From Leucothrix mucor DSM 2157 (GTDB lineage: Bacteria; Pseudomonadota; Gammaproteobacteria; Thiotrichales; Thiotrichaceae): 64,000 nucleotides of DNA. The translations under genes were made by a program, and so were the position numbers. The notes beneath the pieces were generated by a model. That model was not told the DNA's origin. It ran no database searches and was given only the letters and a program-made list of their open reading frames with translations. The DNA lies in the NCBI RefSeq assembly GCF_000419525.1, contig NZ_ATTE01000001.1, positions 62,001 to 126,000 of the forward strand, given 5' to 3'. Positions 17,100-34,999 of this stretch are shown one piece after another (the first letter of the stretch is position 1; every line of letters starts with the position of its first letter).

Positions 17100-17287
17100 G
17101 TGGATGCAACCAAGTCGCCGTTGTAACTCATTGTCCTTGAACCAACGGTTCAAGTGGGAGCCATGAGAGTGATATTAGGCTTACCGAAAAACGGTCATGC
17201 GCACAGCCACTCCACAAGTGCTCCCGGGTAGCATAATTAGGCTCAAGGGAAACCCGAGCACTGACAAATGACCCAGTAGACATCCGT
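17100..17287 (-). ncRNA. ssrS: 6S RNA
   Basis: Read on the minus strand, this 188-nt segment aligns by eye with E. coli 6S RNA (184 nt): CCCTTGAGCC near the 5' half, then GCGCATG.CCG, AAGCCTAA, and CTTGAACC-N3-GGTTCAAGG followed by GTTACA and GGCGAC near the 3' end. The termini pair: GGATG near the 5' end (17281-17285) with CATCC at 17102-17106, as expected for the closing stem. A near-consensus promoter sits just upstream. 6S RNA sequesters sigma70 RNA polymerase in stationary phase. It lies between cbiX and lexA, not between zapA and ygfA. Ends are estimated to a few bases. Confidence 0.85.
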
Positions 17288-18171: not shown

Positions 18172-19122
18172 ATGTTATCGCGATATTTCAGTTTTATTAC
18201 GGTGATGGGTGTTGCGCCTGTTGCTATGTTTGTCACTATGGGTATGAGCTTTCCTGCTTATGCTAACGCTAATGTCTTGCTGGATACCAATGGGAATCCT
18301 TTGCCTAATGACTTTGGAGCTCTAATTGAGTTGCTGGACTCTGCCAGCGCAGAACAAAAACGTAAATTGCTTGGTACTAGCGCGGTCAGTGCTCCAAGAT
18401 CGGTTACGCCTGAGCCCGCGTCTGCTACTAAAAGTACTCCGGCAGCATCTGCTGAGGCTGTAGAGCCAGAAGTTACTGAAAAACAGAAAAATCCTGCTTT
18501 TTATAATCCTGAGTTAGCCAAGCGTTTGTATGATGCTTTGGATGTCGGTGACGCTGCGCGTTCTAAGTGGTTGCTGGATTCCGGGGCGGGTAATAAATAC
18601 GTCACTGAAAAAGGTGACACCAGCTTACGGTTGGCGATTCGTAAGCGTTGGGCATCTGTTGTGCGCGTTCTATTAGAACGTGATCCTGATTTAACTCAAA
18701 TGGATACAGGTAAAGTTAGTTTGTTGCATGAGGCCAGTGCGCGTGGTGCTTACGATATCGCTAAGATGTTGATTGATGCAGGACTTGATCCGCACGCTAA
18801 GACGGCTAAAAACTGGACCAACTTGCACTTGGCGGCACGCTTCGGCCATGCGGATATGGTGCGTTACTATTTGCAGATTGGTTTAGACCCGAATGCCAGA
18901 AACTCTGAGGGAAATACCGCTCATTGGTTGGCAATGCATCTGAGGCATTATCAGGCGGGTGCTTATTTGGCTCCACATACCAGTGCCACATCACACCAAA
19001 GTTTTGGTGATGAGAAGAGTAAAAAAGGGAGTTCTAAGCGCTCCAGGCGATCTACCCAGAAGTCAAAGCCAGCAAGAGGATTCTCACCGGCTGAGCTTGA
19101 AATGCTGAGATCTATCCAGTAA
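18172..19122 (+). CDS. Periplasmic ankyrin-repeat protein
   Basis: A 316-residue protein with an N-terminal signal peptide (GVAPVAMFVTMGMSFPAYANA, cleavage around 31-33). A linker rich in Ala, Ser, Pro and Glu (about 60-105) follows. Roughly four ankyrin repeats span about 115-260, for example GKVSLLHEASARGAYDIAKM, LIDAGLDPHAK and NWTNLHLAARFGHADMVRYY. The C-terminus is basic (KKGSSKRSRRSTQKSK). Ankyrin repeats bind proteins; the partner is unknown. It stands alone between lexA and the convergent coaD. Confidence 0.78.
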   Translation: MLSRYFSFITVMGVAPVAMFVTMGMSFPAYANANVLLDTNGNPLPNDFGALIELLDSASAEQKRKLLGTSAVSAPRSVTPEPASATKSTPAASAEAVEPEVTEKQKNPAFYNPELAKRLYDALDVGDAARSKWLLDSGAGNKYVTEKGDTSLRLAIRKRWASVVRVLLERDPDLTQMDTGKVSLLHEASARGAYDIAKMLIDAGLDPHAKTAKNWTNLHLAARFGHADMVRYYLQIGLDPNARNSEGNTAHWLAMHLRHYQAGAYLAPHTSATSHQSFGDEKSKKGSSKRSRRSTQKSKPARGFSPAELEMLRSIQ

Positions 19123-31112: not shown

Positions 31113-32243
31113 ATGGGAAAGTCAGTAGTAAGGTGGTACCAGAAAAACATCAAGCGCGTTTGTGGTGTGGCTTTGATGTGTATGCTGGTGCAAAGTGGCG
31201 CCTCAGTTGCAGCGCTGCCAAGCTCGGTTAATGGGCAAGCCTTACCATCGCTGGCTGACATGCTGGAGAAAGTGATGCCTGCGGTGGTCGATATTGTGAC
31301 CGAAGGCTCAGCGTCTGAGGCTGCGGATGGTAATTACCAGCGCTTATTTGGCGGAGAGCTACCAGAGCGTGGTCGTGGTACTGGCTCTGGAATCATTATT
31401 GATGCCCAAAATGGTTATGTCGTCACCAATGCGCATGTTGTTAATGGTGCGCAAAAAATAAAAATAACCTTAACGGATGGCCGTGAGCTGGAAGCCGAAT
31501 TAGTCGGTGAAGATGCTGGTGCCGATGTTAGTGTGCTGCAGGTTAAGCCGGAGCGACTGGTTGCGTTAAAGTTAGCTGATAGCGATAAGTTGCGGGTTGG
31601 CGATTTCGTGGTCGCAGTAGGTAATCCCTTCGGCTTAGGCCAAACCGCTACTTCAGGAATTGTGAGTGCACTAGGGCGTTCCGGCCTTGGTATCGAATCC
31701 TATGAAAACTTTATTCAAACTGATGCGCCGATTAATCCGGGTAACTCCGGCGGCGCTTTAGTTAACTTACGTGGTGAGTTAATTGGCATCAATACGGCTA
31801 TTTTAGGTGGCCGTGGCGGCGGAAGCGTCGGTATTGGTTTTGCCATTCCATCGAATATGGTCGGCAATATCAAAGACCAGCTCATTAATTTTGGTGAAGT
31901 CAGGCGTGGTCAGCTCGGGGTCGAAATCCAAAACTTAGAGCCAAATATGCTTGAGGCCTTGTCGATGAGTAATGCCGAAGGTGCCTTTATTTCCCGAGTT
32001 GTAATCAACTCGCCAGCAGATCAGGCAGGCTTGCAAAGCGGTGATGTGATTGTTCAGGCGAATGGCAGCCGAGTTCGTAATAGCGTTAGCCTCCGCAATA
32101 TCATTGGCAATCTGCCGATTGGTACGCGGGCTGCGATTGAGTTTGTTCGGGATGGGCGTGCTTTAATTACAGTTGCTGAAGTGAGCAAAGTAGACAGCCG
32201 CAGTGGTTTCAGGCCACAGCATAAAAAAATATTCCCTCAGTGA
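31113..32243 (+). CDS. Periplasmic trypsin-like serine protease, DegP/DegQ/DegS family (one PDZ)
   Basis: Envelope quality-control protease of 376 residues. An N-terminal hydrophobic segment (VCGVALMCMLVQSGASVAAL) is a signal peptide or anchor. The catalytic triad is visible: His in YVVTNAHVVNGA, Asp in AGADVSVLQV, Ser in INPGNSGGALVN. A single PDZ domain follows (about 270-365; QAGLQSGDVIVQANGSRVRN). One PDZ and about 375 residues fit DegS-like or AlgW-like enzymes better than two-PDZ DegP. If so it could cleave RseA to release sigmaE, but a DegQ-type role cannot be excluded. Confidence 0.88.
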   Translation: MGKSVVRWYQKNIKRVCGVALMCMLVQSGASVAALPSSVNGQALPSLADMLEKVMPAVVDIVTEGSASEAADGNYQRLFGGELPERGRGTGSGIIIDAQNGYVVTNAHVVNGAQKIKITLTDGRELEAELVGEDAGADVSVLQVKPERLVALKLADSDKLRVGDFVVAVGNPFGLGQTATSGIVSALGRSGLGIESYENFIQTDAPINPGNSGGALVNLRGELIGINTAILGGRGGGSVGIGFAIPSNMVGNIKDQLINFGEVRRGQLGVEIQNLEPNMLEALSMSNAEGAFISRVVINSPADQAGLQSGDVIVQANGSRVRNSVSLRNIIGNLPIGTRAAIEFVRDGRALITVAEVSKVDSRSGFRPQHKKIFPQ

Positions 32244-32410
32244 TAGAAAATCGGAATGTAGTTCGAGGGTGACAAACGGTAGCTGATGTAATAGTATCAA
32301 GTCATAGTTTGTTGAGGCGGTTTTCGTTCGTCTGGAATCAGTCGTTCAGCTAAGGTTCAGTTTGAGCTTTCGCAAAACAAGAATCCGTTCAATAAGTCGT
32401 AACCAGTTTT

Positions 32411-32547
32411 CCGCTGTATGGGAAAGGTAAGTTATAGATGCTTAAGCCCGGTGTCTTTACCTTTCTTAGCGGACGCAGATTTGGTGTCCCCAATCCAAGT
32501 CTGTTCTTTAGCCCTTTCAATGGACCCCCTGTTGATTGGGCTTTTTT
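32411..32547 (+). ncRNA. Candidate Spot 42/ErsA-like small RNA
   Basis: This part of the 333-bp gap between degQ and engB folds strongly on the plus strand. A long stem pairs CCGCT (32411-32415) plus GAAAGGTAA (32422-32430) with TTACCTTTC (32457-32465) plus AGCGG (32468-32472). A second stem is CAGATTTGG (32476-32484) with CCAAGTCTG (32495-32503). AGCCC (32510-32514) then pairs with GGGCT (32538-32542), followed by TTTTT. The segment GTATGGGAAAGGTAAG and the later GATTTGG resemble the 5' part and the GGATTTGG of E. coli Spot 42. Spot 42 and ErsA lie next to engB in the same orientation. I found no convincing promoter, so the 5' end is uncertain. Confidence 0.5.
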
Positions 32548-32569
32548 ATGCGCGCCCAATCAACAGGGG
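32526..32569. repeat. 15-bp perfect inverted repeat flanking the T-run
   Basis: CCCCTGTTGATTGGG (32526-32540) and its exact reverse complement (32555-32569) enclose a 14-bp loop that holds the T-run of the plus-strand terminator. On the minus strand it is a very stable hairpin 8 bp after the engB stop and probably ends or protects that transcript. Confidence 0.7.
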
Positions 32570-32576
32570 CTACTAA

Positions 32577-33185
32577 TTACTCTTCAATAACAGGGTTCAT
32601 CCAGGTATCTAGCTGCTTTGCCAGATCTTCCACGCCTAAGCGCTTTAATGATGAGAATGTTTGAACCGTTGCAGGTAAGTCGTATTCTTTAAGTGCCTTG
32701 CGAGTATCGTTCAGGGCTTGCGTCATTGCGCCACGTTTTAACTTATCTGACTTATTCAAGATAATATGCACGGGTAATTGGCGTGATTCCGCCCATTCCA
32801 GCATAATATGATCGTAGTCAAGCATGGGTCGTCGAATATCCATGATAATGACCATGCCGACTAGTGTCGTGCGCCCGATCAGGTAGCTTTCGATAAACGC
32901 TTGCCACTCCAGTTTCATGTGTTCCGGAACTTTTGCGTAGCCATAACCTGGAAGATCGACCAGTGCATTGCCGTTAGGTAGCTCAAAGAAATTGATTAAC
33001 TGAGTACGGCCTGGTGTCTTACTGACTCGTGCCAGTGATTTTTGTTCACAAAGACAATTAAGCGTGCTGGATTTCCCGGAGTTTGAACGGCCAGCGAAAG
33101 CGACTTCTAAACCATGCTCCGGAGGGAGAGTTTTGGTCGTTGTGGCGCTGGATAAAAAGCGGGCATTTCGGTAAATCGAACTCAT
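32577..33185 (-). CDS. engB: Ribosome-biogenesis GTPase EngB (YsxC/YihA)
   Basis: An essential small GTPase needed for 50S assembly. The 202-residue protein has EVAFAGRSNSGKSSTLNCL (G1), TPGRTQLINFF (G2), LVDLPGYGYAKVP (G3), ILNKSDKLKRGA (G4) and a G5-like TFSSLKRLGVEDL. It is monocistronic on the minus strand, with cytochrome c4 and dsbA divergent upstream, the same neighbourhood as in Pseudomonas. Confidence 0.96.
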   Translation of the reverse strand: MSSIYRNARFLSSATTTKTLPPEHGLEVAFAGRSNSGKSSTLNCLCEQKSLARVSKTPGRTQLINFFELPNGNALVDLPGYGYAKVPEHMKLEWQAFIESYLIGRTTLVGMVIIMDIRRPMLDYDHIMLEWAESRQLPVHIILNKSDKLKRGAMTQALNDTRKALKEYDLPATVQTFSSLKRLGVEDLAKQLDTWMNPVIEE

Positions 33186-33415: not shown

Positions 33416-34030
33416 ATGAAAAAAGCATTGGTAGTAGTTTTAGCGAGTTTGGCGATGATGGCCTCTGCCGTTAGTTTCGCTAAAGGAGACCCTGTTAAGG
33501 GTAAAGAGTTATCAGCAACATGCGCTGCGTGTCATGGTGCCGATGGTAATAGTGTTAACCCCGAGTGGCCTCGGCTCGCTGGTCAGAATGAGTCTTATCT
33601 GATCAAGCAACTCAATGATTATCGTAGTAAAAATCGCGTTAACGCGGTAATGAGTGCTCAGGCTATGCTGATCGCATCGGATGAAGATGTTGAGCATTTA
33701 GCGGCTTATTTTGCTTCTCAGCAAGCTAAACCAGGCGCTGCTGATGAGACAAAAGTAAACGAAGGGATGCTGCTGTATAAAGGCGGAAAAATCTCTACAA
33801 AGGTAACTGCTTGTGCGGCTTGTCATGGTCCTACCGGTATTGGTAATGAGGCGGCTAAGTTCCCAAGACTGGCGTCACAGCATCCGAAGTACCTGATTGA
33901 TCAGTTAAAGCTATTCAGATCTGGTGCACGTGCTAACGATGCAGGTCAGATGATGCGCAATATCGCTAGCAAAATGTCAGATACTGATATGGAAGCGGTT
34001 GCTGAATACATCTCAGGTTTGAAAGAATAA
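33416..34030 (+). CDS. Diheme cytochrome c4
   Basis: Periplasmic electron carrier of 204 residues with a cleavable signal (MKKALVVVLASLAMMASAVS, cut after SFA). Two class I heme domains each have a CxxCH: CAACHG near 38-43 and CAACHG near 139-144. Axial Met candidates lie in VNAVMSAQAM and AGQMMRNIASKM. The two-domain layout is that of cytochrome c4, which feeds terminal oxidases. The site AGC-ACGTAA before the ATG supports the start (GGAGC 8 bp upstream). dsbA follows, as in Pseudomonas. Confidence 0.93.
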   Translation: MKKALVVVLASLAMMASAVSFAKGDPVKGKELSATCAACHGADGNSVNPEWPRLAGQNESYLIKQLNDYRSKNRVNAVMSAQAMLIASDEDVEHLAAYFASQQAKPGAADETKVNEGMLLYKGGKISTKVTACAACHGPTGIGNEAAKFPRLASQHPKYLIDQLKLFRSGARANDAGQMMRNIASKMSDTDMEAVAEYISGLKE

Positions 34031-34201: not shown

Positions 34202-34999
34202 ATGAATACGCAAATTTCTCTACTAGCCTCCAGTCTGGTAGTGCTAACACTTGTATTAGCTGGCTGTGATTCAGCAACTGCAACAAACGATAAGAAAGCG
34301 GTAGAGTCTAAAGTTGAGGTTGCTGAAAAAACAGTAGCTGCAGCTGCGACACCTGTTGCTGAGACGGCTCCTGCTGAAGTGGCTAAAGCTGAAGAAGCTG
34401 CGCCAACTGAAACTCAGGCGGTAGTGAACAAGACCGAATTTAAAGAAGGTGTTCACTATTTCGAAATTTTCCCACAGATGCAAACAGATGCACCAGCAGG
34501 AAAAGTTGAGGTGGTTGAGTTGATGTGGCTGGGTTGCCCTCATTGCTTTAATCTTGAGCCAACAATCGAACAGTACAAAAAGAGTCTTCCTGACTACGTT
34601 GCGTTCAAACAGGTTCCAGCAATGCTGAATCCACGTTGGGCTGCCGATGCTAAAACATTCTACATTGCCGAGTTGCTTGATCCGACGGGTGAGAAGAAGC
34701 TGATTCCAAAGATCTTCAATGCAATTCACGTGCAGCGTCGCGCCAGAATGTCTGATCCAGGCGTGGTAAAAGATTACCTGCTACAGCAAGGTATCAGCGA
34801 AAAGGATTATGATAATGCCGTTAACTCTATGGCATTACAGGCTAAATTAAGCCGTGCACAGCAAATCAGTGCAGATTCTCAAGCACAATCAGTACCTAGC
34901 ATCATTATCGATGGTAAGTACCGCACCAGCCCTTATGCGGCGGGTGATGAGAAGAAGTTGCTTGAAGTCATTGATATGCTGACAGAGCGTTCTAAGTAA
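34202..34999 (+). CDS. dsbA: DsbA-type thiol:disulfide oxidoreductase, lipoprotein form
   Basis: Introduces disulfide bonds into exported proteins. Here the N-terminus is a lipoprotein signal (LVLTLVLAGC, Cys at about 22) with Asp at +2 (CDSA), which in gammaproteobacteria favours retention in the inner membrane. An Ala/Glu/Val-rich linker (about 30-80) separates it from the thioredoxin fold. The active site is LGCPHCFNLEP (CPHC as in E. coli DsbA) and the cis-Pro loop is AQSVPSIIIDGKY. Classical DsbA is soluble, so a membrane-tethered version is notable. coq7 follows 17 bp downstream. No dsbB is visible. Confidence 0.88.
   Translation: MNTQISLLASSLVVLTLVLAGCDSATATNDKKAVESKVEVAEKTVAAAATPVAETAPAEVAKAEEAAPTETQAVVNKTEFKEGVHYFEIFPQMQTDAPAGKVEVVELMWLGCPHCFNLEPTIEQYKKSLPDYVAFKQVPAMLNPRWAADAKTFYIAELLDPTGEKKLIPKIFNAIHVQRRARMSDPGVVKDYLLQQGISEKDYDNAVNSMALQAKLSRAQQISADSQAQSVPSIIIDGKYRTSPYAAGDEKKLLEVIDMLTERSK

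Follow-up and report, generated by a model that had tools for sequence, protein, structure and literature searches.

The window analysed here is a stretch of 64,000 nucleotides of Leucothrix mucor DSM 2157 (contig NZ_ATTE01000001.1, positions 62,001 to 126,000). Between a degQ-like gene and engB it contains an unannotated RNA at window positions 32408-32549 on the plus strand, about 142 nt long with predicted ends. The upstream neighbour (31113-32243, plus strand) encodes a serine protease with Pfam PDZ and trypsin domains, for which the best NCBIfam model is DegQ, below the cut-off. The gene engB (YihA/YsxC; 32577-33185, minus strand) was recognized by TIGR03598 with 230 bits, above the cut-off; it is convergent with the RNA, which lies beside it and points at it across a gap of 27 nt. 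It is followed by genes for a c4-like diheme cytochrome c (33416-34030, plus strand) and a dsbA-like protein (34202-34999, plus strand), both named by protein models. The order engB, cytochrome c, dsbA is therefore as an earlier, sequence-only reading of this DNA had given it. That reading was also correct that polA is replaced upstream by degQ and that the small RNA (sRNA) gene adjoins engB all the same: polA of this genome is found about 134 kb from the RNA, and the degQ-like gene occupies its place. The position and orientation of the RNA are those of ErsA, as had been proposed.

The predicted fold consists of three hairpins, the third of which is an intrinsic terminator. Hairpin 1 (32410-32473) has a long, variable stem and the apical loop UAAGCCC at 32443-32449. 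Hairpin 2 (32475-32504) has ten pairs and the apical loop UGUCCCCAAU at 32485-32494. Hairpin 3 (32510-32547) carries the inner loop ACCCC, with CCCCC at 32525-32529, and runs into a U-tract at 32542-32547. The fold of 32408-32549 has a z-score of -5.95, and none of 200 shuffled sequences was equally stable; the interval 32411-32569, chosen in the sequence-only reading, gives -6.86, again with 0/200. The two long stems and terminator seen there on the plus strand are thus confirmed. The extent of that interval is not, for the RNA probably ends at the U-tract in the modelled structure, 20 nt earlier.

The longer interval includes a perfect 16-bp inverted repeat (arms 32526-32541 and 32554-32569), which contributes to its fold and extends partly past the proposed end of the RNA. 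On the side of engB, the repeat duplicates a part of hairpin 3 together with its C-run. Inspection by eye did not reveal it in the six other genomes of the genus, so that here it resembles the product of a recent quasi-palindrome event, and it could place a copy of part of hairpin 3 in the 3' UTR of engB.

Conservation within the family

A DNA search of 57 genomes found homologues in 34 of the 36 genomes of the same family, the genome itself included (G031 and G033 gave no match), and in 0/21 genomes of other families. According to most of the named records, the family is Thiotrichaceae. An exact two-part pattern retrieved 51 stretches from named genomes. They come from Leucothrix, Cocleimonas, Thiothrix, Thiolinea and Thiofilum, from records under the label Thiotrichaceae, and in a few cases from records whose labels are less precise or unexpected. 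All match the family model except one from an Archangiaceae record, which looks like a chance occurrence. The RNA is convergent with engB in 42 of these 51 loci, and degQ lies upstream on the same strand as the RNA in 43.

Three C-rich apical loops, AAGCCC, UCCCCAAU and CCCCC, together with some stem letters, are fixed. AAGCCC in loop 1, UCCCCAAUCC in hairpin 2 and CCCCC in hairpin 3 are invariant in 34/34 aligned sequences. When the 34 family sequences were folded singly, with homologous ends, each gave three hairpins with C-rich loops and minor differences. In three loci (L026:1456-1604, L027:1469-1616 and L018) a repeated ATTAAG or GTTAA was seen by eye just upstream of hairpin 1; this repeat may form an extra small 5' hairpin.

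The sequence-only reading had named beforehand a lack of conserved stems in related genomes as a ground for giving up its proposal. The stems are kept. In an alignment of 50 sequences, which was fitted to the structure of the model and so favours the pairing score, 96.4% of the cells are paired and 26 of the 34 base pairs changed on both sides. None of 500 shuffles reached any of these measures, and slid structures were 31-49% paired. Hairpin 2 is paired in 99.6% of cells, and seven of the eight pairs of hairpin 3 show changes on both sides. Taken together, the fold, the homologues and the covariation give good support for a gene at 32408-32549.

Shared terminators are frequent between convergent genes, and it is important to consider whether the element acts only in cis, as a terminator region shared by degQ and engB with no trans-acting product. 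The terminator-like third hairpin and the additional 16-bp inverted repeat in this genome agree with such a role. However, two additional hairpins that combine invariant loops with covarying stems would not be required for termination, and the C-rich loops of related RNAs are kept whether degQ or polA lies upstream. We consider this explanation quite improbable.

No Rfam family reaches its gathering score at this place in the window, and none was found at E <= 1 in the five family loci scanned. On the window RNA, RF02232 (sX13; gathering score 50) scores 13.6 bits and RF02837 (anti-hemB; cut-off 49.5) scores 14.4 bits; neither model gave a match in the search of this genome. For RF01719 (ErsA; cut-off 50 bits) there was no match in the window or in this genome.

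The locus of Spot 42 adjoins engB, and the window RNA has the same engB side and orientation. In addition, the sequence-only reading saw a resemblance in two short segments. On this basis the RNA could be an orthologue of Spot 42 (RF00021), an Hfq-dependent regulator of carbon metabolism. The resemblance was not borne out. The Spot_42 covariance model gave no match of at least 80 bits in the window and none at E <= 10 in 32240-32640, and it matched 0/49 genomes, including this one, while the E. coli control was positive. The longer look-alike segment, GTATGGGAAAGGTAAG (32416-32431), makes up one side of a stem whose sequence differs even between members of the genus. The other segment, GATTTGG, lies within the 5' arm of hairpin 2, and its TTGG is invariant. 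The two RNAs share a place beside engB with no match of sequence or model, and orthology with Spot 42 is hardly credible. The polA side of the Spot 42 locus is described in a portion of the sX13 paper (PMC3771888). Part of a review (PMC8395346) terms ErsA a functional orthologue of Spot 42, and the pairing of these two names in the sequence-only reading may stem from that wording. Closer yardsticks for this RNA are sX13 and anti-hemB, which that reading did not mention.

Upstream elements and relatives in other families

A sigma-70-like promoter candidate, GTGACA - 17 nt - TAGTAT, is located at 32269-32297 on the plus strand; it has 9 of 12 consensus letters, with 0.4 chance sites of this quality expected in the stretch. 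GTGACAA is present in 7/7 genomes of the genus, and TANTAT follows 17 nt on in four of them. If the candidate is true, the transcript would be about 245 nt long with a leader of 100 nt, as judged from the sequence. Between this site and the RNA there is a direct repeat, GTTCAG-N5-GTTCAG (32344-32360, plus strand), which is possibly a regulator box. Such direct repeats are typical of OmpR-type regulators. It is the sole match in the window, and an exact one, in a search that allowed one mismatch (1.08 expected at that tolerance). The form GTTMAG-N5-GTTMAG occurs in six of the seven genomes of the genus, and the seventh has ATTCAG as its first half.

Outside the family the upstream region commonly contains a sigma-E-like pattern, GAAC[CT][TA]-N13-17-GTC, third A allowed. 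It was present in 17 of the 30 loci on which it was set. Widened by one letter, it was found in 12/19 held-out loci, parts of which had been inspected before the test, against about 1% in shuffles that kept single-letter composition; two of the 12 matches are unusually spaced, at 24 and 118 nt. Some loci with no match show GAACTT and a different second part. Within the window family the pattern was detected in one of 33 loci (L010) and in none from the window genus; Leucothrix keeps GTGACAA/TANTAT and the GTTMAG repeat instead.

The model of the window's own RNA family (R1), which contains no information on neighbouring genes, was applied to 369 genomes of the class. At E <= 0.001 it matched 36, and 33 of these belong to other families. 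Among the 27 of these 33 outside loci that were fetched, engB was present in 18, polA in 17 and cytochrome c4 in 13, and at least one of the three in 22. The remaining five are L046, L047 and L048, which lie no more than 0.8 kb from a contig end, and L050 and L051. The last two, from two genomes of one family, have a C-rich RNA that R1 matches and, with it, a sigma-E-like promoter pattern.

The anti-hemB model matches 18 of the 20 scanned outside R1 loci with 30-59 bits, five of them above 49.5. In the class it matches 167 of 369 genomes, 20 above the cut-off. Because it also gave matches below the cut-off in 3/14 control genomes, position counts more than score, and a C-rich composition can inflate model scores. 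Of the 150 anti-hemB matches listed, 58 could be compared with an engB match listed for the same genome. Among these, 45 are within 3 kb of engB, all 45 on its 3' side; 43 are on the opposite strand, 38 of these at a distance of 15-150 nt. The other 13 of the 58 are not near engB, most being on another contig. The window RNA has the same geometry as the matches near engB, and the same comparison for R1, again among the matches listed, gave 10/13. Six of 30 anti-hemB loci had no engB, polA or cytochrome c4. Several genomes contain three or four anti-hemB-type RNAs in tandem (G205:C33:13148-13886, G313:C8 and G297:C3); the first of these (L070) has four between engB and polA.

A survey of 30 engB loci, picked by protein score and made with no RNA model, gave 12 with at least two CCC apical loops facing engB and 0/30 with such loops on the engB strand, compared with 46/900 for dinucleotide shuffles; polA was in the locus in 13/30. 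Together with the fetched loci, the survey points to polA - sRNA - engB, with the RNA convergent to engB, as a common arrangement elsewhere.

The ErsA model produced 13 matches, one of them above the cut-off, and seven coincide with anti-hemB matches. Among the fetched ErsA-model loci, 11/12 have polA or engB. The sX13 model gave several false-looking matches below its cut-off, 6/15 loci having no engB, polA or cytochrome c4.

Two further covariance models were made in the opposite direction, from foreign RNAs; the E-values of R1, R2 and R3 are rough, owing to short calibrations. R2 was built from ten four-hairpin RNAs and found 34/34 family RNAs at E <= 1.6e-6. Its match in the window, at 32435-32548 on the plus strand (E 1.9e-7), is the only one there at E <= 10, and 400 kb of the same genome gave none at E <= 1. 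R2 is not an independent test, since its members were picked by eye for a hairpin of the AAGCCC type and seven of the ten genomes were also R1 matches. It weakly matches three sX13 loci (E 0.017-0.024) and the ErsA locus (E 0.048).

Because the selection for R2 was partly by eye, a third model, R3, was trained on RNAs from 17 of 30 anti-hemB loci, with no R1-matched genome; 16 of the 17 are beside engB, polA or cytochrome c4. R3 recovered 32/34 family RNAs at E <= 0.073, 28 of them at E <= 0.007, with each match inside the RNA, and missed two; the window RNA was matched at E 0.005. In 160 kb of the window's genome it gave one match, at E 0.82. It also found three sX13 loci (E 4.6e-5 to 4.5e-4) and the ErsA locus (E 8.5e-4). 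In the engB survey it matched 13 of the 16 loci tried, which had been chosen from the 30 as C-rich by eye or as matching ErsA. In contrast, four sX13-type loci all escaped R1 at E <= 0.1. The kinship with ErsA suggested in the sequence-only reading is thus supported only indirectly, by the matches of R3 to both the family RNAs and a genuine ErsA locus and by the coincidence of ErsA-model and anti-hemB matches; R2 reaches that locus only at E 0.048, and the ErsA model itself does not match the window RNA.

Proposed action

The position is conserved, the three hairpins covary, the C-rich loops are invariant, and the RNA is similar in sequence and structure to RNAs linked to engB and polA. From these observations we consider it likely that, in Leucothrix and the rest of its family, it is an sRNA that acts in trans and ends at an intrinsic terminator, a divergent member of a group with C-rich loops, linked to engB or polA, that includes sX13, ErsA and anti-hemB. 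The RNA would be transcribed, and its loops AAGCCC, GUCCCCAAU and ACCCCC could pair with G-rich sequence in or close to ribosome-binding sites. In this way the RNA may repress several mRNAs at the level of translation, an effect that has been demonstrated for sX13 in Xanthomonas. Pairing of the C-rich loops with G-rich starts is most likely, as a best guess by analogy, because the anatomy is the same as that of sX13. The hfq gene is present in this genome, so that either an Hfq-dependent or an Hfq-independent mode is possible.

Hexamers complementary to the loops were counted at the starts of 373 predicted genes from 464 kb. They are not clearly enriched there: TTGGGG occurs in 4/373 versus 12/1117 and GGGCTT in 0/373 versus 20/1117. 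Only GGGGAC (5/373 versus 3/1117) and GGGGGT (3/373 versus 2/1117) lean toward starts. For the hairpin 2 loop and its flanks (14 letters), the exact complement is present only at the RNA's own gene; with up to three mismatches it has 265 places, compared with 215 for the reversed control, and no clear target emerged. One candidate is an ankyrin-repeat gene (18172-19119), whose predicted start codon is preceded at a distance of 13 nt by TTGGGGAC, a complement of loop 2. A 6S RNA gene (17103-17282, minus strand; 79 bits) is located near this gene. Further candidates are a luxR-type and an Lrp-type gene, their classes assigned by eye. The gene miaA, upstream of hfq, has GGGGACA at its start and was rejected as a target: the motif is present in one of 22 family loci, that of the window's genome, with start positions approximate in several of the loci. 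The start of hfq has no GGGG.

The C-rich loops might instead bind a protein, or mimic the ribosome as anti-Shine-Dalgarno decoys. Related RNAs have CCUCCC loops, which resemble the anti-Shine-Dalgarno letters of 16S rRNA. A CU-rich double-hairpin RNA of Burkholderia, ncS27, slowed growth when overexpressed, as reported in part of PMC5688073. However, the window family has no CCUCCC hairpin, its invariant AAGCCC and UCCCCAAU are poorer anti-Shine-Dalgarno matches, and regulation by sX13 required the C motif and the G motif of the target together (PMC3771888, in part). A protein-binding or decoy RNA is unlikely, and we prefer base pairing with mRNAs.

Relation to known systems

The bridging sequences described above link sRNAs that have so far been described under separate names. 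It may be that ErsA, sX13, anti-hemB and the window RNA go back to a single ancient sRNA, which acted by base pairing in envelope stress, was located between polA and engB and was transcribed from a sigma-E promoter in the common ancestor of the beta- and gammaproteobacteria. In the Thiotrichaceae line, the proximity to polA, the anti-Shine-Dalgarno hairpin and the sigma-E control would later have disappeared. The case for this common origin appears to us evenly balanced. If it is true, what is one RNA now goes by several names that have not been connected, findings on ErsA and sX13 would be transferable, and the invariant loop letters would predict seeds directly. For Thiotrichaceae the RNA represents an unannotated sRNA family; among the openly licensed papers listed in our searches, at the level of titles and abstracts, we found no sRNA study and no description of this RNA in that family, and none that joins ErsA, sX13 and anti-hemB.

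ErsA (Pseudomon-1, RF01719) is likewise an intergenic sRNA, located between polA and engB as given in an excerpt of PMC8575079. The single over-threshold ErsA locus seen (L263) has C-rich loops, and ErsA, too, is matched by R3. ErsA depends on sigma-22 (PMC8395346, in part), whereas most members of the window family show no such promoter pattern.

Anti-hemB (RF02837; ncS04 of Burkholderia) has C-rich hairpins and a terminator and often lies convergent just downstream of engB, as does the window RNA. RNAs matched by this model usually have the CCUCCC hairpin. Compared with the relatives in other families, the window RNA keeps the AAGCCC, UCCCCAA and terminator loops but not this hairpin.

In sX13 (RF02232, Xanthomonadaceae) three stems carry C-rich apical loops, with five C in the third, as in the window RNA. 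The loops of sX13 have 4C, 4C and 5C, according to part of PMC3771888, while the first loop of the window RNA has CCC and not CCCC. The same source states that sX13 represses mRNAs with G-rich motifs near their starts, independently of Hfq; it compares the sX13 locus with those of Spot 42 and alpha-r7 and anticipates a search elsewhere. The sX13 loci are beside polA (L066-L068), whereas the window RNA occupies a related site beside engB with no polA. The two differ also in that the sX13 model scores so low on the window RNA and R1 misses the sX13 loci, yet both are matched by R3.
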